DNA from: Gammaproteobacteria bacterium
GTDB lineage: Bacteria; Pseudomonadota; Gammaproteobacteria; Steroidobacterales; Woeseiaceae
DNA length: 64,000 bases
NCBI GenBank assembly: GCA_029862045.1
Contig: JAOTYE010000008.1
Coordinates: 62,001 to 126,000 of the forward strand
Direction: 5' to 3'
This document shows, piece after piece, positions 27,726 through 43,190 of this stretch (positions are counted from its first letter, which is position 1; every line of letters starts with the position of its first letter). The translations under genes and the position numbers were made by a program. The notes below the pieces were generated by a model that did no database searches, was not told where the DNA came from, and saw only the letters and a program-made list of their open reading frames with translations.

Positions 27726-29990
27726 TTAGAGCCTTATGGGCAAATCCCGAACGCGAATTCCGCTCGCTGCGAAGACCGCGTTGCCTATCGCGGGTGCGAC
27801 CGGGATTAGCGGCGGCTCACCCAGGCCGGTCGGAAACTCTGTGCGGTCCATGAAGCGAATATCCAGCTCCGGTACATCGGCCATGCGCAACGGCGTATAC
27901 GTGTTCAGATTGTTGTCTTTGACTTGCCCTTGCTCGATCGTCGTCCCCTCGTGCAGCGCGAGGCTAACACCCCAAAGCGTCGCACCTTCGGCCTGGGCCA
28001 TCGCGCCGTCCGGGTGAACGGCCGTCCCGCAATCAATTGACTGCCAGATTTTTTTCACCGTGATCGCTTTTGATTGCGCATCGACTGCCACATGTGCGAT
28101 GCAAGCAACCCAGGTCGGCATGTTGCGCTCCTGCCCGTGAGCAACCGCGACGCCGTAACCCTCACCGTCGGGTAACGATCGTCCCCAGTCGGCTCGCTTG
28201 CGCACGTCTTCGAGTACGGCGGCCAGTCGCGACGCACCGCCAACAGAGTTTGGTTCGCTACCGGCATTCTTGCCTGCCGCATCGAGGCGCGCGAGTCGAA
28301 ACTCGATCGGGTCTTCGCCAGCCTGCGCCGCCACTTCGTCGATGAAACTTTCAACACCCCAGCCAATCCAGCCAGGACCTACTGAACGCAACCACCCGGG
28401 CAAGAAGGTTCGTTGGGCGAGATCGTTGTTAATTGCGCGGACACGATGATTCGGCAACGTGTACCAATGATCCGCGCCGCTGATCGAAAACGTATCGAAC
28501 TTGCCGTTACCATCGACACCGTCCGCGAGAAAACCCGGCGCCATCGATAGCGTTGGCCAACCCGCAGCCGCGGCGTGTTCGATGCCCGTCAGAGAGCCAT
28601 CTGCGTCGAAGGACGCATCAAACTTCGCAACCGACGGTGAACGCACGCAATCGAAGCGACTGTCCTCAGCGCGTTGGAATATGAGTTTGACGGGACGGCC
28701 CAATTCGCGTGCCGCCAGCGCCGCCGGAATCATTTGATCGCCAAACAGACGGCGGCCGAAGCCACCGCCGAGGTAGTACTGGTGAATGACAATGTCGGAC
28801 TCAGGAATCTCCAGAGCATTGGCGAGAAACGGCAATATCAAAGATTGCCACTGGTTGCCCGAATGTATGTGACACACACCATCAGCAAACTCGACCAACG
28901 CGTTCTGCGGCTCGAGCGTGAAATGCAACGCCGTACCGGTTCGATACGTCGCCGTATGCGTGCTCGCCGCGTTTGCCCTGGCGGCCGCGACGTCGCCATC
29001 ATCAACAACCAGGACACCGCTGGCCGAGTCAGCTGCCAGTCTTGCGCCTTCGGCAAAAATTTCGGCTTCACTGACGTCTGCCGTCGGCCCGGCCTCCCAG
29101 TCGACTTTGACCGCGGCGGCTGATTTCATGGCAGCCGGAAAACTCTCTGCAACGACCATCCCCCAGCCCTGAATCACGTTGCTTGGATCTTTGATCGTCA
29201 GCGTTTGCAGGTAACCTGGAATGTCTTTTGCGGCGCTATCGTCGATGGATCGTATCGTGCTGCCGTAGCGTGTCGGCGGAATCAACGGATGTGCATACAC
29301 CATGTCCGGCAACTCGGCGTCGAGACCATAGACGGCCTCGCCTTGTGATTTCTCCGGCACATCAAGCGCGGTAGTGTTCTTGCCTATCAGACGGCGTGCA
29401 GCCGCCGGTTTGATAGGCATCGCTGCCAGCTCTTCATCGCTGAACGATCGACTGATATCGCCCTTTGCAACGATGTCGGCAAAAGACACCGATTGGTCGC
29501 CGGCGACAACTTGCCCCGCTTCGGCGGTGCAATCGGATGCGTCAACGCCAAGCAGTTTCGCGCCGGCATCAAGCAGAACCGTGCGGCCGGCAGCACCGGC
29601 TCGCGACAACATGGCAAAACTCGTGAACACGGACCACGAGCCCCCGGTGACCATGTAGCCCCACTTCGGATCCGAATCGACGTGCTTGATTTTCACGCGG
29701 TCCCAATCGGCGCCGAGTTCATCAGCGACAATGCGTGCCAGCGCGGTACCAACATGTTGGCCCATTTCCGCCTTTGCAATATTGATCAGCACACTGCCGT
29801 TGCCATCGATCTCGAACCAGACGGCTGGCGAGAACACACGGCTCGCACCGCCGGCGGCGATGTCCGTTGCTGCCTGTTCGCGGCTGCACCCCGGCAGCAA
29901 CGTACCAAAACTCATTACAAGACCTGCCGTGACGCTGCTCGCGAGGAACGTGCGTCGGCTGACGGCGATATTTTTCTGCTGCATCCCCAT
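27726..29990 (-). CDS. xanthine dehydrogenase-family molybdopterin subunit (IorB-like)
   Basis: A 754-residue large subunit of a periplasmic molybdenum hydroxylase. The start at 29990 (M-G-M-Q-Q-K-N-I) has a strong AAGGAGG and lies two bases after the small-subunit stop. A Tat signal S-R-R-T-F-L-A-S leads a hydrophobic stretch ending L-L-P-G-C, so export in folded form, possibly as a lipoprotein, is likely. The body has the split aldehyde-oxidase/xanthine-dehydrogenase layout seen in isoquinoline 1-oxidoreductase beta subunits, including G-G-G-F-G-R-R and the C-terminal G-E-P-P-L-I-P-V-A-P-A-I. It hydroxylates N-heterocycles or oxidises aldehydes with water as oxygen donor. The actual substrate cannot be read from the sequence. 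Confidence 0.92.
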   Translation of the reverse strand: MGMQQKNIAVSRRTFLASSVTAGLVMSFGTLLPGCSREQAATDIAAGGASRVFSPAVWFEIDGNGSVLINIAKAEMGQHVGTALARIVADELGADWDRVKIKHVDSDPKWGYMVTGGSWSVFTSFAMLSRAGAAGRTVLLDAGAKLLGVDASDCTAEAGQVVAGDQSVSFADIVAKGDISRSFSDEELAAMPIKPAAARRLIGKNTTALDVPEKSQGEAVYGLDAELPDMVYAHPLIPPTRYGSTIRSIDDSAAKDIPGYLQTLTIKDPSNVIQGWGMVVAESFPAAMKSAAAVKVDWEAGPTADVSEAEIFAEGARLAADSASGVLVVDDGDVAAARANAASTHTATYRTGTALHFTLEPQNALVEFADGVCHIHSGNQWQSLILPFLANALEIPESDIVIHQYYLGGGFGRRLFGDQMIPAALAARELGRPVKLIFQRAEDSRFDCVRSPSVAKFDASFDADGSLTGIEHAAAAGWPTLSMAPGFLADGVDGNGKFDTFSISGADHWYTLPNHRVRAINNDLAQRTFLPGWLRSVGPGWIGWGVESFIDEVAAQAGEDPIEFRLARLDAAGKNAGSEPNSVGGASRLAAVLEDVRKRADWGRSLPDGEGYGVAVAHGQERNMPTWVACIAHVAVDAQSKAITVKKIWQSIDCGTAVHPDGAMAQAEGATLWGVSLALHEGTTIEQGQVKDNNLNTYTPLRMADVPELDIRFMDRTEFPTGLGEPPLIPVAPAIGNAVFAASGIRVRDLPIRL

Positions 29991-29992
29991 GG

Positions 29993-30451
29993 CTACACCT
30001 CCTTCGCGTTCGCGGCGGCCTTGATGGCCTTGCGAATGCGCGTGTACGCCATGCAACGGCAGACGTTGCCGTTCATCGCTTTGTCGATATCATCATCGCT
30101 TGGGTTCGCGTTCGCGGACAGCAGGTATGCGGCCTGCATAATCTGACCAGACTGACAGTAGCCGCACTGCGGTACCTGTTCGGCAACCCAGGCGTTCTGC
30201 AACGCTTGTCCGGCATCCGAATCGAGCCCTTCAATCGTCGTCACCGAGCGGCCTGCTGCAACGCTGACTGGCACAACGCACGAGCGCGTCGCTGTGCCAT
30301 CGAGGTGAACGGTGCAGGCGCCGCACATCGCGATGCCACAGCTGTACTTGGTTCCTTTCAGCTTCAGCTCATCACGAATGACCCACAACAGCGGGGTTTC
30401 CGGGTCACTGTCCGTGGTGACCGATTTACCGTTGATTTCGAACTCGATCAT
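29993..30451 (-). CDS. (2Fe-2S)-binding small subunit (IorA-like)
   Basis: A 152-residue electron-transfer subunit. The N-terminal plant-type ferredoxin motif [12 protein letters not shown] and the C-terminal four-helix motif C-G-Y-C-Q-S-G with C-R-C-M-A-Y identify the two 2Fe-2S clusters of the family. It has no signal peptide and would be co-exported with the Tat-tagged large subunit encoded immediately downstream. Length is normal for isoquinoline oxidoreductase alpha subunits. Confidence 0.95.
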
Positions 30452-34854: not shown

Positions 34855-37194
34855 TCAGAAATCGTATTGTGTTCGAAGGTAAAAATACCTGCCGTTCATG
34901 CCGATCCCTGACAGCACATCATATGGCAGATGACCGAAGTAATTGATGTCATCGCTTGAAAGGTCGGGATACTCATCTGTCAGGTTGTCGGCACCAATCG
35001 CTACCGTCCAGTCGTCGTTAATCTTCGCCGCAAATTCCGCATCGACCGACCAGACCGACCCGTAGGTTTGTTCCGGCTCGAATCCGCCGCCGAAGTCGAA
35101 TATGCGCGTTGTTTCGCCATATTGGGTCAAACGCAACAACGTTGACCAACGATCGACTATCCAACTGCCAGAAGCGATGAATTTGTCCTCCGGTGATTTG
35201 GATTCGACGGTGTTCAAGTCTTCCACGTCAAGCACGCTGGGATTCTTGGCATCGGTCTCAGAATTGTTGTACGAAACGCTCCAGTCAATAGTGCCGGCAC
35301 CCGCTTCAAGCGTACCGGTTGCCACGATATCGAACCCCGTCGTCTCCGTATCGACCAGGTTGGAAAAATATTCAATGTTGTTTGCCGCGTTGATGAGCGT
35401 GACTCGATCATCAACGTCGATCTGAAAATAGTCGACTGTCAGGCTGAATGCGGGGCCCGAATCGAAAACAAAACCTACGCTGAAGTTCGTTGATTCCTCC
35501 TCCTTCAGTGGTACGGCGCCTTCCGCGATGGCATCCGGGTTGGACACCGGCAGAATCCGAAACAGCTCCAGCATGCCGCCGTCGCCGAAATCGGTCTTCG
35601 ACTTTTCAAAGCCGATCTGCGCCAGTGACGGCGCACGGAAGCTCGTTCCCACAGCACCTCGTATCGCAAACGCATCTGTGGCCTGGAACCTTCCCGACAA
35701 TTTGCCGGTTAGCGAATTGCCGAAGTCGTCATAATCTTCGAAACGCGCTGCGCCGCCAATGGTGAATCGATCCGTTAGATCTGCCTCGACATCGATGTAT
35801 GCGGAAATCACCGTTCGATCGACGTTGGCCTCGGTGCCAGCCGCCAGCCCGGGCCCGGCCTGCGCTCCGACAGCGGCGTCGACTGGACCGGTTTCGTATG
35901 ATTCCGGATCGCCGGCGCTTGTTTCATAGTCTTCGAAACGCACCTCCGCACCATAGGCGAATGTCATCGGCGAACTGAGACCACCAAGCTCAAATTCCCT
36001 TACGACATCGGCATTGAGCGTCGTCTGCGTAAACTCGAAACCACCCAGATTAAAAGACGTCGGGCTCGCGGCACCAAGCGATGGATTTGCGGAATCCTTA
36101 ACCCCCGAGTCGAAATCGTTGCTGCCGAGGGTCAGGCTCAGGTCCCAGTCGGATTCAAAATTTGTACCGCGCAAACCCACGGATAATGACGTATCCGTAT
36201 TATCACCAAGGGTTATCGGCCGAAATCCGTCCGGGTGGACGCTCGGCAGACTTGAGAACCCGTCCGGATAACGGAAGAAACCCGTACCCTCGGTCTCACG
36301 ATTGGAATAACGGCCGAACGAATAAAACTCCCTCTCGCCGATCGGAACAGAAGCATTGTAAAAAACATAGATGTCATCAGCCCCACCGTCGCCGGGTGAA
36401 AAAACGCGCGCGGGATTCAGCGCCTGGTTGGCCGGCGTGTCGTCCTCGAAGAATGGCAGCACGCCAATGCCGGCCCGGTTGGTCGCATCGCGAGTGCGGT
36501 ATTCGCCGCCAATTCGCAGGCTGCCACCATCGCCAACCGCGAAGCCATAGTCCGCGGCCACCGAGAATGTATCCCCGTCATCGATATCGTCACCGGTCGG
36601 ATCGAAATCGGTCCGATGCTGTCCATACGAGGCCGTTACCGTACCGCCCTGGGCCGCATCCTTGAGTACAATATTAATAACGCCGGCGATTGCATCCGAT
36701 CCGTACTGCGCCCCGGCGCCATCCCTCAATATCTCGATTCGCTCAATGGCGATCAGGGGGATCGTGTTAAAATCGAACGGGTTCGTACCCAGTCCGATCG
36801 CCGACTCCAGCGCGACGACCGAAGCCGTGTGCTGCCGCTTGCCGTTTACGAGAACCAGTGTGTGATCCGGGCTCATGCCGCGCAGCTGCGCCGCACGCAC
36901 ATGGTCCCCTGCGCCCGAGTTCGACTGACGGGGAAAACTGAATGACGGCGCCAACGCCTGCAGCAGCTCGCCCAGCTCGCCGCCAAATGAGTGCGCTGCA
37001 GCGATTTCATCTGCGCTGATAACGTCGACAGGTACGACGCTCTCCAGCGGATCACGCGCTTCGCCGCGACTACCGACGACGACGATTTCTTCAGTTGCCT
37101 CCTCCTGAGCCTGCGCTAAAGCGTTACCGTTTGTCAGCAACAACATTGCGAATGCGGTGGTTCCCAGAACTGCGACTGTGCTTGATCGGTTCAT
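34855..37194 (-). CDS. TonB-dependent outer-membrane receptor, coupled to exported SAM hydrolase
   Basis: A 779-residue receptor with a signal peptide (to about A-L-A-Q-A). A TonB-box-like E-E-I-V-V-V-G-S-R near residue 35 is followed by a plug domain (about 45-180) with L-V-L-V-N-G-K-R, I-E-R-I-E-I-L-R-D-G-A-G-A-Q-Y-G-S-D-A-I-A-G-V-I-N-I. A 22-strand-type barrel ends in Y-F-Y-L-R-T-Q-Y-D-F, with the C-terminal aromatic required for outer-membrane insertion. Its ATG overlaps the stop of the upstream SAM hydroxide adenosyltransferase gene by four bases (ATGA), so the two are made together. The substrate is unknown; the partner enzyme points to an adenosyl or nucleoside-like compound, an inference. 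Confidence 0.93.
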   Translation of the reverse strand: MNRSSTVAVLGTTAFAMLLLTNGNALAQAQEEATEEIVVVGSRGEARDPLESVVPVDVISADEIAAAHSFGGELGELLQALAPSFSFPRQSNSGAGDHVRAAQLRGMSPDHTLVLVNGKRQHTASVVALESAIGLGTNPFDFNTIPLIAIERIEILRDGAGAQYGSDAIAGVINIVLKDAAQGGTVTASYGQHRTDFDPTGDDIDDGDTFSVAADYGFAVGDGGSLRIGGEYRTRDATNRAGIGVLPFFEDDTPANQALNPARVFSPGDGGADDIYVFYNASVPIGEREFYSFGRYSNRETEGTGFFRYPDGFSSLPSVHPDGFRPITLGDNTDTSLSVGLRGTNFESDWDLSLTLGSNDFDSGVKDSANPSLGAASPTSFNLGGFEFTQTTLNADVVREFELGGLSSPMTFAYGAEVRFEDYETSAGDPESYETGPVDAAVGAQAGPGLAAGTEANVDRTVISAYIDVEADLTDRFTIGGAARFEDYDDFGNSLTGKLSGRFQATDAFAIRGAVGTSFRAPSLAQIGFEKSKTDFGDGGMLELFRILPVSNPDAIAEGAVPLKEEESTNFSVGFVFDSGPAFSLTVDYFQIDVDDRVTLINAANNIEYFSNLVDTETTGFDIVATGTLEAGAGTIDWSVSYNNSETDAKNPSVLDVEDLNTVESKSPEDKFIASGSWIVDRWSTLLRLTQYGETTRIFDFGGGFEPEQTYGSVWSVDAEFAAKINDDWTVAIGADNLTDEYPDLSSDDINYFGHLPYDVLSGIGMNGRYFYLRTQYDF

Positions 37195-38084
37195 TTTTCT
37201 ATCCTTATATTCCAGCTGGCACCGGATTGAATGTGGAATGTTTCAGAGTAGTTGCCCTGGTTTATTGCCAGGGACACATTGTTAAGGCTGTTCAAATAGA
37301 GTAGTGGCTTACCAACCGGAACCCGGCCGAATGTGGGGAAGTAGGGCAAAGTCTGTGTGAATACGAAATCATCGCCATTGGAGATTTGAATGCTGACTAT
37401 GTCGCCCGGATCCAATTCCAGCGCCTTGAACGTCTCCCGATCGATGTTTGTCCAGATATTGCCGAACTGGGGGTCGAGTATCTCGATGTTGCCGTACACC
37501 CGTCCCTGATCGATGCGTGGCTTTTGATAGGGAATCGACAGCACTTCTGCCGGGAGCTCACGTCCGACTTCTGCGAAAGAAATGACATCGGCCGCCAGGC
37601 GCGCGCCCGTGTAGGCGTAGACATCGCGACCATGAAACGTGTAAGACTTTTCCGAATTGGCGAGGCGATTCACTGCTTCATCGATTTCCCGAACAGCCTC
37701 CACGCCGAGCTGCTCCGCTACCGCCGTCAGACTGCCGTTATCCGGCGAAACGAAGTAATGGCCGGATTTCGTTTTCAGCACCACGGACTTACGCTCCGTG
37801 CCAACGCCGGGATCGACAACAGAGACGAAAACCGTGCCTTTCGGCCAGTACTCGGCTGCCTGAGCAAGTCGCAGCGACGCTTCCCAAATATTGTACGTGG
37901 GTACCTCGTGTGTCAGATCGTAAATAACGAGGTCGCGGGAAACGCTGACCGCGACACCCTTCATCGATGCGACCGCTGAATCCTTGACGCCGAAATCCGA
38001 CTGCAGCACCAGCGGACCGGCCGACCACGCAACTACCGCCGGGAAAACCGTGACCACGGCAAGCAATGCCGTCCATTTCTTCAT
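37191..38084 (-). CDS. exported SAM hydroxide adenosyltransferase (DUF62 family), copy 1
   Basis: A 297-residue protein of the S-adenosylmethionine hydroxide adenosyltransferase/fluorinase family, which splits SAM into adenosine and methionine using water. The ATG at 38084 has AGGGGG upstream and is followed by a signal peptide (hydrophobic 5-20, ending A-W-S-A-G). Family motifs are intact: S-D-F-G at 29-32, D91 and R98 in V-V-D-P-G-V-G-T-E-R, H151 in T-F-H-G-R-D, and F-G-N-I-W-T-N-I. These correspond to the Asp-Arg-His water-activating triad known for the family. Most members are cytoplasmic, so an exported one is unusual. It is co-translated with a TonB-dependent receptor. Confidence 0.92.
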   Translation of the reverse strand: MKKWTALLAVVTVFPAVVAWSAGPLVLQSDFGVKDSAVASMKGVAVSVSRDLVIYDLTHEVPTYNIWEASLRLAQAAEYWPKGTVFVSVVDPGVGTERKSVVLKTKSGHYFVSPDNGSLTAVAEQLGVEAVREIDEAVNRLANSEKSYTFHGRDVYAYTGARLAADVISFAEVGRELPAEVLSIPYQKPRIDQGRVYGNIEILDPQFGNIWTNIDRETFKALELDPGDIVSIQISNGDDFVFTQTLPYFPTFGRVPVGKPLLYLNSLNNVSLAINQGNYSETFHIQSGASWNIRIEK

Positions 38085-38187
38085 ACACTGTCCCCCTCGT
38101 GGACCGGATTGTCGCTTGACCACCAGTCTTTGTAGTCAGCGCTCTTCTTGGTCAAGAATATCTTATAAAGACAGAGGCTTATACACA

Positions 38188-39120
38188 ATGTTCCGAGCGC
38201 TCAGCCTGCTGATCACTTATTCATTAATTATAGCGCTTACAACGAGCGCTGCTGCGGGCGAATCGCGGCGAGCGTTGGTGTTGCTATCCGACTTCGGCAC
38301 AACGGAGCGCTTCGTTGCCAGCATGAAAGGCGTAGCGCTAAGCGTCGATCCGGAACTTCAAGTGCACGATTTAACGCATCATATTGAGCCATTCAATATC
38401 TGGCAGGCTTCGTACATGCTGGCTGGCACGATCGACTACTGGCCGAAAGGCACGGTTTTCGTCTCTGTTGTCGATCCCGGCGTCGGCACGGATCGCCACT
38501 CTGTCGTCGTAAAGACAAGTTCCGGACATTATGTGGTAACGCCGGACAACGGCAGTCTGACTCTCACTGCCGACGCACAAGGTATCCTGGAGGTTCGGCA
38601 GATCGACGAAGCGATAAATCGACGGCCCGGCTCTGAGAGTTCACACACGTTTCATGGTCGCGACGTCTATGCGTACACAGGTGCAAGGCTGGCCGCTGCA
38701 GTGATTGAATTTGATGACGTCGGTCCGCTTCTCGAACCGAACGTCGTCAGACTGAACTACCAGCAACCGGAAAAACCAGATAACAACACGATCATCGGAA
38801 ATATTACGCACATTGAAATGCCATTCGGCAACATTGTTACTAACATTCCAAAATCGATGGCCGACGCACTGGATCTTGCGCCTGAAGACAACACAAAAGT
38901 ATTCGTGGAAATTTCCCGGGCCGGCGAATCAGTTTTCCGACAAAGCATTCCATATGTCCGGTCGTTTGCTTATGTTGATGAAGGCCAGCCGTTGCTTTAC
39001 TCAGATTCGTTACAGACGATCGGGCTGGCCGTTAACGGCGGCAACTTCGCACACCAGTTTGACGTAAAGGCAGGCGCCGATTGGACGATACGCCTTGTCA
39101 AGCTGGCGGCACAGGAGTAA
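38188..39120 (+). CDS. exported SAM hydroxide adenosyltransferase (DUF62 family), copy 2
   Basis: A 310-residue paralogue, transcribed divergently from copy 1 across about 100 bases. The ATG at 38188 is chosen because it opens a clear signal peptide (hydrophobic 4-20, cleavage near S-A-A-A-G) and AGAGG lies upstream. S-D-F-G at 34-37, D96 and R103 in V-V-D-P-G-V-G-T-D-R, H156 in T-F-H-G-R-D and F-G-N-I-V-T-N-I are conserved. Long blocks are identical to copy 1 (Y-W-P-K-G-T-V-F-V-S-V-V-D-P-G-V-G-T; H-G-R-D-V-Y-A-Y-T-G-A-R-L-A-A). The S158 typical of fluorinase is not apparent, so hydrolysis rather than halogenation is expected. Confidence 0.92.
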   Translation: MFRALSLLITYSLIIALTTSAAAGESRRALVLLSDFGTTERFVASMKGVALSVDPELQVHDLTHHIEPFNIWQASYMLAGTIDYWPKGTVFVSVVDPGVGTDRHSVVVKTSSGHYVVTPDNGSLTLTADAQGILEVRQIDEAINRRPGSESSHTFHGRDVYAYTGARLAAAVIEFDDVGPLLEPNVVRLNYQQPEKPDNNTIIGNITHIEMPFGNIVTNIPKSMADALDLAPEDNTKVFVEISRAGESVFRQSIPYVRSFAYVDEGQPLLYSDSLQTIGLAVNGGNFAHQFDVKAGADWTIRLVKLAAQE

Positions 39121-40933: not shown

Positions 40934-41139
40934 TTCGACCTCCTCCGGGCTACAGTTTAGTCTGTTTATGGCCAACAAAGGTTCACCGGCGAGCGCCAGT
41001 ATGCGCCAGGTCCGATACTTGCTCGCAATCTTCGAGAAACTTGATTTGCCAGGAGGTGATCGGCCAGTATCGATTCGTACTCAATATAATCAGCACCAGT
41101 CAGGGTGCCGGCAATCGCCCGGACAGAACAGGGGGCAAC

Positions 41140-42246
41140 GTGAAAATTTCCGCAATCCGAGTCTATCAAGTGGACCTGCCACTGGTTGAGGGCCGCTATT
41201 CATGGTCCGAGGGCAAGTTCGTTGAGGTGTTCGACAGCACCGTCGTTGAGTTGCTCACCAACGACGGCCATTCCGGATATGGCGAGGTCTGTCCGTTAGG
41301 GCCATTTTACCTGCCCGCTTTCGGCCCGGGTGCCCGCGCCGGTATCGGCGAACTCTCAGCAACGCTCATGGGGCAGGATCCAACCGCAATCGGGCCGATC
41401 AACCTACTAATGGACAAGGCGTTGTTAGGTCATCCTTACGTCAAGTCCGCCATCGACATGGCGTGCTGGGATCTTCTCGGCAAAGTGACCGGGAAATCGG
41501 TCTGTGACTTGATGGGCGGCAAGTTTGGCGAGAGCGTCGCGCTGTATCGTGCGATCAGTCAACGGCCCGCCGATGAAATGGCGGACAACGTCGCAGCCCA
41601 TCGCGCGGATGGGTATGCCAAGTTTCAGCTCAAGGTTGGCGGTCGTCCGGAGGACGATATCGAACGGATTCATGCAGTCGCCGGGGTATTGACAGAGGGA
41701 GAAGTGCTCGTCGCGGACGCAAATACAGGCTGGCGTGTGGATGATGCAATCAGGGTCGTAAATGCCGTTCGTGATCGGGATGTCTACATCGAACAGCCCT
41801 GTCGTTCCTACGAGCATTGTCTGACGATCAGGCGCCGCACGTCTTTGCCGTTCATCCTGGATGAGAATATTACCGGTATCGATGCGTTACTTCGCGGCCA
41901 CAGCGATGGCGCAATGGATGTCATCAATCTGAAAATATCCAAGGTCGGCGGTCTTACAAGAGCACGCCAGATCCGTGACCTCTGCGTGTCGCTGAACATA
42001 CCCATGACCATTGAGGACAGCTGGGGTGGCGACATTATCACCGCGGCGATCGCACACCTGGCTCACTCGACGCCGGAATCCTTGCGCTTTTCAGCAACCG
42101 ATTTCAACAGCTACGTCACTGTTCGAAACGCGACCGGAGCACCGAAGCGCGTGTCTGGTCATATGGTTGCCTCGGACGATCCGGGACTCGGCATTGCCCC
42201 GGATAGGGATGTGCTGGGCAAGACAGTTGCGGAGTACACGAGTTGA
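41140..42246 (+). CDS. mandelate racemase/muconate lactonizing enzyme family, hydroxyproline-type subgroup
   Basis: A 368-residue enolase-superfamily enzyme. The GTG at 41140 (V-K-I-S-A-I-R-V) has AGGGGG seven bases upstream and fits the family N-terminus. The cap domain shows G-Y-G-E-V-C-P-L-G-P-F-Y. The barrel has F-Q-L-K-V-G-G (catalytic Lys), metal ligands in A-D-A-N, I-E-Q-P-C and L-D-E-N, a second Lys in N-L-K-I-S-K, and E-D-S-W-G-G-D. This set resembles hydroxyproline-betaine 2-epimerase and cis-3-hydroxyproline dehydratase-like proteins. Epimerase and dehydratase activity cannot be told apart by eye. It is translationally coupled to a DHDPS-family gene, as expected for hydroxyproline breakdown. 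Confidence 0.88.
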   Translation: MKISAIRVYQVDLPLVEGRYSWSEGKFVEVFDSTVVELLTNDGHSGYGEVCPLGPFYLPAFGPGARAGIGELSATLMGQDPTAIGPINLLMDKALLGHPYVKSAIDMACWDLLGKVTGKSVCDLMGGKFGESVALYRAISQRPADEMADNVAAHRADGYAKFQLKVGGRPEDDIERIHAVAGVLTEGEVLVADANTGWRVDDAIRVVNAVRDRDVYIEQPCRSYEHCLTIRRRTSLPFILDENITGIDALLRGHSDGAMDVINLKISKVGGLTRARQIRDLCVSLNIPMTIEDSWGGDIITAAIAHLAHSTPESLRFSATDFNSYVTVRNATGAPKRVSGHMVASDDPGLGIAPDRDVLGKTVAEYTS

Positions 42247-43190
42247 CACATGACCAAGCTGTGTTTTCCGGGTGTATTCCGGCGCTCATGACTCCCTGTA
42301 CCGCGGCGGGCGAGCCAAATTTCGACTCTCTTGCTGCGAAAGGAAAAGAGCTGATCGATATCGGCATGCGTGCCGTCGTCTATTGCGGATCGATGGGTGA
42401 CTGGCCCTTGCTCACCGAGAAGCAACGCATGACGGGCGTCGAGGCTCTGATTCACGCAGAGGTACCTGTCATAGTCGGAACCGGTGCGCAGAATACTTCC
42501 CGAGCAATCACGCTCACCCAACATGCGAGGGATAATGGTGCAGCGGGACTGATGATCATACCGCGGGTACTTTCCCGAGGCACATCCAAACCGGCGCAAC
42601 GAGCTCATTTTGCTGCGATTCTCGAAGCGGCGGGCGAACTACCGGCTGTGATCTACAACAGTCCCTACTACGGGTTCGAAACCAAGGCAGACCTGTTCTT
42701 TGAATTGAGAAACAAGCACAAGAACCTGGTCGGGTTTAAAGAGCTCGGTGGCGCTGCGTCGCTCAGTTATGCGGCGGAAAACATAACAGGGGGCGATTCC
42801 GGGTTGATACTCATGATTGGTGTCGATACGCAGGTCGTTCACGGCTACGTTCGTTGTGGCGCCAAAGGTGTCATCACCGGTGTCGGCAATGCCCTACCCA
42901 GAGAAGTTCTGCGCCTTGTGGACTTGAGCCTTCTCGCGGCTGAAGGCGATGCAGCCGCATTGCAACTCGCCAGTGAGCTCGATCAGGCGCTTGCGGAACT
43001 TTCCAAATTCGATGAGGGCCCGGATCTCGTTCTCTACTACAAACACCTGATGGTGCTCGAAGGGAACCCGGAATACGAACATCATTTCAATACCAGTGAT
43101 GCGCTCAGTCGTTCCCAGCGAGCTCACGTTGAAGCTGAGTGGCGACGCTTCCGACGTTGGTGGGACGATTGGCCGGGCGCGCGTTCTTGA
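42243..43190 (+). CDS. dihydrodipicolinate synthase (DapA)-family lyase/deaminase
   Basis: A 315-residue class I aldolase-fold enzyme. It starts at a TTG that overlaps the previous stop (TTGA); the nearest ATG is out of frame. GGAG lies upstream. The Schiff-base lysine is K166 (V-G-F-K-E-L) and the partner tyrosine Y138 (V-I-Y-N-S-P-Y-Y). This is probably a catabolic member rather than true DapA, because it follows a hydroxyproline-type enolase enzyme. 1-Pyrroline-4-hydroxy-2-carboxylate deaminase, which belongs to this family, is the best pathway guess. 2-Keto-3-deoxy-sugar aldolases are alternatives. Confidence 0.88.
   Translation: MTHDQAVFSGCIPALMTPCTAAGEPNFDSLAAKGKELIDIGMRAVVYCGSMGDWPLLTEKQRMTGVEALIHAEVPVIVGTGAQNTSRAITLTQHARDNGAAGLMIIPRVLSRGTSKPAQRAHFAAILEAAGELPAVIYNSPYYGFETKADLFFELRNKHKNLVGFKELGGAASLSYAAENITGGDSGLILMIGVDTQVVHGYVRCGAKGVITGVGNALPREVLRLVDLSLLAAEGDAAALQLASELDQALAELSKFDEGPDLVLYYKHLMVLEGNPEYEHHFNTSDALSRSQRAHVEAEWRRFRRWWDDWPGARS

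Follow-up and report, generated by a model that had tools for sequence, protein, structure and literature searches.

Two leader-bearing SAM hydroxide adenosyltransferases beside a TonB-dependent receptor in the Woeseiaceae: a possible set for capture and hydrolysis of extracellular SAM

The stretch of DNA analysed here, hereafter the window, comprises 64,000 nucleotides (G000:C22:62001-126000, where G000 is the source genome, a member of the Woeseiaceae) and encodes, between positions 34855 and 39120, a predicted TonB-dependent receptor and two paralogous S-adenosylmethionine (SAM) hydroxide adenosyltransferases (SAM_HAT, DUF62), each with an N-terminal leader. An earlier reading made from the letters of the window had presented these genes as an exported enzyme pair coupled to the receptor; its coordinates, the four-base overlap with the receptor gene and the divergent placement of the second SAM_HAT gene are all borne out. 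The features are as follows.

34855..37194, minus strand: TonB-dependent receptor P0003, 779 residues, predicted outer-membrane importer (Pfam; leader by eye)
37191..38084, minus strand: SAM_HAT 1 (P0001), 297 residues, leader-bearing, ATG at 38084, stop at 37191
37191..37194, minus strand: ATGA, four-base overlap of the SAM_HAT 1 stop with the receptor start (from the sequence)
38019..38084, minus strand: SAM_HAT 1 leader, residues 1-22 (from the sequence; low confidence over about residues 1-20 of the AlphaFold2 (AF2) model)
37812..37814, 37791-37793 and 37632-37634, minus strand: SAM_HAT 1 triad codons Asp91, Arg98 and His151 (from alignment)
38085..38187: divergent intergenic stretch of 103 bp, presumed promoters, no Rfam match
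38188..39120, plus strand: SAM_HAT 2 (P0002), 310 residues, leader-bearing, ATG start (PF01887 and PF20257; own clade in the tree)
38188..38256, plus strand: SAM_HAT 2 leader, residues 1-23 (from the sequence)
38473..38475, 38494-38496 and 38653-38655, plus strand: SAM_HAT 2 triad codons Asp96, Arg103 and His156

The ATG starts were used throughout, the longer GTG (38123) and TTG (37984) starts of the open reading frame list being mechanical. Both proteins, which are about 52% identical, belong to the SAM_HAT family: the Pfam domains SAM_HAT_N (PF01887) and SAM_HAT_C (PF20257) score 176.5 and 70.0 bits for P0001 and 176.5 and 65.3 bits for P0002, against cut-offs of 26.3 and 25.5. The Asp-Arg-His triads named in the sequence-only reading (D91/R98/H151 and D96/R103/H156) are correct, and align with D68/R75/H127 of PH0463, a triad described in PMC10491745. 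Scores against the (R)-SAM hydrolase equivalogs NF058624 and NF053629 (117.7-135.4 bits) lie far under the cut-offs of 350 and 470, and the pair is therefore not of the modelled (R)-SAM hydrolase type. P0001 and P0002 are predicted SAM-cleaving enzymes that would release methionine and adenosine.

Over its whole length the fold of P0001 (AF2 model, mean predicted local distance difference test score 90) is about equally near to the chlorinase SalL and to the hydrolases, and in the alignment SAM_HAT 1 agrees with SalL at Trp211 and at Asp35/Ala37. At the positions of Asp35 and Ala37, which from work on the fluorinase we take to be the methionine side of the pocket, SAM_HAT 2 has Glu and Phe. 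Since the paralogues differ there, each may serve one of SAM's two sulfonium epimers, or the two may take different related compounds; such a division of labour is a guess from aligned residues. A quick maximum-likelihood tree of 109 rows (the 105 non-redundant SAM_HAT rows, with six solved proteins added and the fragments L049 and L124 removed) places the P0001 and P0002 types in one supported group (99), within which the P0002 type, a Caldithrix protein included, forms a single clade (100); leaderless SAM_HATs form another (100). Proteins of the type found in G516 fall outside the P0001/P0002 group, joined to the halogenases with support 90, a join that is unsafe because of long branches. 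In two P0002-type proteins (L109 in G003, L158 in G002) the triad His is replaced by Asp (TFDGRD), and neither has a P0001-type partner in the stretch seen; their activity is possibly changed or lost.

The leaders, MKKWTALLAVVTVFPAVVAWSA in SAM_HAT 1 and MFRALSLLITYSLIIALTTSAAAG in SAM_HAT 2, follow a Sec-type pattern by eye and fall in the positive class of a home-made leader test, in agreement with the sequence-only reading; both enzymes are probably exported, putatively by Sec. The test was applied to the 105 non-redundant rows, some of which had no usable anchor. Positive results were obtained for 57 of the 69 rows closest to P0001, 8 of the 9 closest to P0002 and 3 of the 4 closest to the G516 protein, and for none of the 23 rows of the leaderless clade, of which four (L003, L071, L119, L121) were anchorless and hence not really tested; by eye these four have no leader. 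Among the 14 leader-type negatives, two are cut by contig ends, eight lack a usable anchor and four (L033, L042, L044, L045) have a hydrophobic leader by eye. Leaders of lipoprotein type occur in five of the P0001-group positives, and one positive (L005, from G099) is read as false, the leader being missing by eye. Fisher values for these counts take no account of relatedness between the rows and carry no weight here. The window genome holds a third SAM_HAT, which is leaderless (G000:C12:135227-135670; L003:1450-2286) and has as neighbours a queuosine-precursor-transporter gene (TIGR00697) and a gene that by eye encodes a glutaminyl-tRNA synthetase; the leader-bearing pair are therefore not the sole SAM_HAT copies of this genome.

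Linkage of receptor and enzyme was followed through 107 genomes of the family Woeseiaceae and 296 sampled genomes of the order. In the family, 82 genomes have a SAM_HAT and 14 a receptor homologue (E-value up to 1e-100); all nine full-length homologues of at least 51% identity (G000, G078, G006, G099, G011, G047, G051, G048 and G049) lie directly 3' of a leader-type SAM_HAT, which in one case (G099) lacks its leader by eye. The divergent second copy is also present at six of these nine loci, and the ATGA overlap is kept at all six pair loci (the window plus L111-L115). At the G047 locus the two SAM_HAT genes are separated by a TetR-type regulator gene (Pfam; L115 6635-7294), which is in line with the P0002-type gene and may encode a regulator of the set. 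As to the remaining homologues, the contig carrying the G004 receptor ends before the place where a SAM_HAT would lie, the G103 receptor (50% identity, matched in pieces) comes from a genome with no leader-type SAM_HAT match, and those of G034, G059 and G090 (38-42%) show no SAM_HAT linkage. Across the order, a leader-type SAM_HAT occurs in 26 of 296 genomes (E-value up to 1e-50), with the receptor adjacent in 11: the enzyme gene comes first in G000, G099, G047, G051, G078, G011, G006 and G499 (the receptor of the last containing an in-frame TAG), and the receptor gene comes first in G516, G556 and G575, which belong to another family and have SAM_HATs outside the window's group. The linkage is thus not peculiar to the window genome, as both the nine family loci and those of reversed order attest.

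A wider scan of genome contigs gave 50 SAM_HAT loci, including ones from Bacteroidota, Verrucomicrobiota, Spirochaetota, Fusobacteriota, Calditrichota, Pasteurellaceae and Cardiobacteriaceae. The window's receptor type is present in four (L004, L005, L007, L010), all titled Gammaproteobacteria or Woeseiaceae; several of the other loci end at or near the SAM_HAT. The linkage is found only in the window's order and on one unplaced gammaproteobacterial contig (L010). A phmmer search of the receptor against the open reading frames of the SAM_HAT loci gave matches in linked loci only, and among seven hand-picked large neighbours of SAM_HAT genes (six loci of other lineages and L032) none is a receptor: they comprise two RND pumps, a PIF1-like helicase, a TPR protein, a MacB/FtsX-like protein, a DUF11 protein and a Por-secretion-tail protein. 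Leader-bearing SAM_HATs occur in Pasteurellaceae and Cardiobacteriaceae too (L034, L036, L040). In a Caldithrix metagenome-assembled genome (L011 4252-7950), an APC permease gene and leader-bearing P0002-type and P0001-type SAM_HAT genes run in one direction up to the contig end, beyond which a receptor may lie, and in one from Ignavibacteriales (L029) a leader-bearing SAM_HAT gene adjoins an APC permease gene. The refuting condition named with the sequence-only reading, a linkage confined to this genome, does not hold: the linkage recurs in the order and on L010, while leader-bearing SAM_HATs elsewhere showed no such receptor in the loci seen.

The receptor itself is identified as TonB-dependent by the Pfam domains Plug (69.4 bits) and TonB_dep_Rec_b-barrel (123.3 bits), both above cut-off. 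Named NCBIfam receptor models were rejected as a guide to its ligand, all matches being below cut-off; the vitamin B12 receptor model TIGR01779 (TonB-B12), for instance, gives 86.1 bits against 599.7. Among its relatives of solved structure, most are receptors for B12 or of the catecholate-siderophore type, and the matches to them cover chiefly the plug. A riboswitch as a hint to the ligand was likewise dropped after Rfam searches that returned no match at the gathering score in the window and four relative loci (L111, L112, L114, L115), nor at E-values up to 1 around the divergent promoters; the window, having no match at the gathering score, is therefore without a cobalamin riboswitch. Alignment of the intergenic stretches gave no motif shared beyond close relatives.

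More can be gathered from the surroundings of receptor homologues of the same order that have no SAM_HAT beside them. In G554, G597 and G622 the receptor is accompanied by an APC permease, a Cys/Met pyridoxal phosphate (PLP) enzyme and a short protein of AMP-nucleosidase type (identified in G597 by tblastn only), and G629 has the same set with the receptor matched in two pieces. The PLP enzyme of these sets matches NF005455, with methionine gamma-lyase as the next best model, and the nucleosidase-type protein matches PRK07115 (412 bits for the copy in G570, against a cut-off of 264). In G570, the sulfate-transport genes cysT and cysW and the permease, nucleosidase and receptor genes run in one direction. 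Permeases of the same broad type adjoin the receptor in G577 and G493 (39 and 49% identical to that of G622), and the one beside the G103 receptor is of another type, 88% identical to the permease behind the G078 receptor. An amino-acid ABC set, its binding protein nearest the cystine type but below cut-off, stands beside the receptor in G519, and in G624 a MetA-like gene (336 bits, cut-off 358) lies three open reading frames from it, behind a prolyl aminopeptidase gene. As a control, the nucleosidase was traced to 24 of the 296 genomes and 15 of its loci were inspected: four combine it with the permease, a Met-lyase-like gene and the receptor, G570 has it with permease and receptor, eight have it alone in the fetched stretch (close type; one a 4.3 kb contig), and two more distant loci (L267, L268) have neither permease nor receptor. 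Wherever nucleosidase, permease and PLP enzyme occur together in these 15 loci, the receptor is present (4 of 4). In a midpoint-rooted tree of 43 receptors (14 of 43 earlier-listed places, at 34-38% identity, were neither read nor included), all SAM_HAT-, permease- and nucleosidase-linked receptors, and those of G519 and G624, are among 27 rows on one side of a branch with support 100; the other 16 rows have no match to SAM_HAT, APC permease or AMP nucleosidase in the stretches seen, which for L128, L207, L208 and L217 extend to flanks of about 1.5 kb and for L203 to a 3.2 kb contig.

Taken together, these observations incline us, with moderate confidence, to regard the receptor and the two leader-bearing SAM_HATs as a recurring set for extracellular SAM capture and periplasmic hydrolysis. 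An adenosylated methionine, SAM first, is the ligand suggested because the receptor is joined to an exported SAM hydrolase in some lineages and to a permease, Met-lyase and nucleosidase in others. The receptor would capture extracellular SAM at the outer membrane and pass it inwards by a TonB-driven step, the leader-bearing enzymes would split it there, in the periplasm, into methionine and adenosine, and both products would enter through inner-membrane carriers encoded elsewhere. A candidate carrier is the APC_A permease of the window genome (G000:C4:257468), of the type that accompanies two sister receptors, whose gene lies directly 3' of that of a Cys/Met PLP enzyme (positions 4240-6794 of L254, G000:C4:252000-264000) with methionine gamma-lyase as its best model, below cut-off (377.7 against 549.7 bits); the two are a candidate unit for methionine uptake and breakdown. 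More tentatively, the whole receptor clade may be dedicated to SAM, and perhaps also to S-adenosylhomocysteine, with processing modules that vary by lineage: either SAM hydrolases that are exported, or a permease with a Met-lyase and a nucleosidase that frees adenine. The window paralogues would then cover the two sulfonium epimers. The periplasmic SAM-cleaving unit with its own transporter, as first proposed from the sequence, is strengthened by the recurrence, the reversed order and the methionine and adenine catabolic neighbours, but its linkage is restricted in range; among the roles offered for it then (scavenging, detoxification of an adenosylated compound, or a new substrate for the family), we favour scavenging.

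Several observations weigh against capture and periplasmic hydrolysis of SAM. Fifteen of the 26 order genomes lack this receptor beside the leader-type SAM_HAT (for G019, within 1 kb flanks only), and the linkage is not seen outside Gammaproteobacteria, where some loci (e.g. L006, L011) end at or near the SAM_HAT. The APC_A permease type of G078 occurs in 60 of the 107 family genomes but adjoins the receptor in only three (G078, G099, G103), so that as a neighbour it is weak evidence. Two genomes, G271 and G379, carry receptors of the 27-row group at 48-49% identity with unrelated close neighbours and have no SAM_HAT match at E-values up to 1e-10; the neighbours, named by eye (trehalose genes, OmpA-like, clpB, an NCS2-type permease with no NCBIfam match at 1e-10, pyruvate-oxidase-like), give no hint of the ligand. 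The same genomes have Cys/Met PLP-family genes about 2 kb (G379) and 5 kb (G271) from receptors of the sister group, 34 and 40% identical to the G622 enzyme, so that such neighbours are not wholly exclusive to the 27-row group, which lowers the odds of SAM capture slightly. In addition, the characterised relative StDUF62 lost almost all activity at 300 mM salt, according to PMC12120602, which is awkward for a salt-exposed enzyme.

One alternative is that the ligand taken in by the receptor is a peptide or some other amino-acid-like compound, and that the SAM_HATs are co-regulated neighbours that only clear leaked periplasmic SAM. Next to the receptor or close to it, M20 peptidase genes occur in G048, G049, G051, G011, G554 and G004, so that a peptide-like ligand would also fit, and the APC permeases, the receptor homologues without a SAM_HAT and the leader-bearing SAM_HATs of many phyla with no receptor in the loci seen all point the same way. 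We nevertheless think this unlikely, given the overlap conserved at every pair locus, the joining of receptor and SAM_HAT in two gene orders with two SAM_HAT branches, and the nucleosidase and Met-lyase-like clusters beside related receptors, which point to an adenosyl-methionine ligand. That the N-termini fail as export signals, leaving the enzymes as housekeeping copies in the cytoplasm, is very improbable: SAM_HAT 1 of G099 (L005/L113) has no leader by eye, MKKR standing directly before the domain, but leaders recur across phyla, some of lipoprotein type, against none in the leaderless clade (its four anchorless rows aside), and the window genome has a separate leaderless copy. G099 keeps operon and receptor despite the missing leader, which may reflect an assembly error or secondary loss.

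Other doubts concern the reaction. The substrate of the pair might be some adenosyl-sulfonium compound distinct from SAM itself, or mainly aged, extracellular (R,S)-SAM, as the low (R)-SAM hydrolase equivalog scores and the pocket differences between the paralogues would allow; however, we know of no candidate compound and the pocket reading is an alignment only, and we hold this improbable even though StDUF62 prefers (R,S)-SAM (PMC12120602). A chlorinase-like pair making 5'-halo-adenosine in the halide-rich periplasm is suggested by the residues that SAM_HAT 1 shares with SalL and by its fold, yet hardly any credence can be given to it: a halogenase-like reaction is unlikely because the Asp-Arg-His triad is intact, where SalL and 7ccg have Y-T-Y, the fluorinase model TIGR04507 scores 94.3 and 101.1 bits against a cut-off of 400, and StDUF62 gave no chloroadenosine (stated, with data not shown, in PMC12120602).

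Elsewhere in the window, positions 27726-30451 encode a molybdenum-hydroxylase-like large subunit with a twin-arginine-like N-terminus, together with a 2Fe-2S subunit (by eye), and positions 41131-43190 an enolase-superfamily protein (MR_MLE, Pfam) followed by what reads by eye as an aldolase of the dihydrodipicolinate-synthase type; these two probably act together in the catabolism of a sugar acid or an amino acid.

It is an open question what cells gain by hydrolysing a compound as costly as SAM; in PMC12120602 the authors are sceptical that clearing (R,S)-SAM is the physiological role and suggest another function for at least some DUF62 enzymes. The receptor-tied, leader-bearing branch would answer the question for part of the family. 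If the proposal is right, SAM is food and not waste for that branch, a ligand is predicted for an uncharacterised clade of TonB receptors, and extracellular SAM is valuable enough to justify a transporter of its own, being taken up by an outer-membrane route. The open-access literature, searched by titles and abstracts and with subscription papers outside the coverage, yielded no paper on SAM hydrolases that are exported or on receptors for SAM.

Novelty lies in the location, the coupling and the inferred role, both protein families being known already. The window pair resembles the DUF62 enzymes PH0463, MJ1651 and StDUF62 in both Pfam domains, in the triad and in whole-length fold, but unlike them has leaders, a divergent pairing and a receptor in the operon. 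From the (R)-SAM hydrolases it is set apart by the equivalog cut-offs, and from the halogenases (SalL, ClA1, the fluorinase FlA) by keeping the hydrolase triad. The receptor shares plug and barrel with BtuB, FepA and CirA, but no named model reaches its cut-off and its neighbours place it in a group of its own. In periplasmic nucleotide scavenging of the UshA type, a charged nucleotide-like compound is cleaved outside the inner membrane and its parts are then imported; the proposed set would work alike, with an enzyme of another family, a sulfonium in place of a phosphate, and a dedicated TonB receptor.

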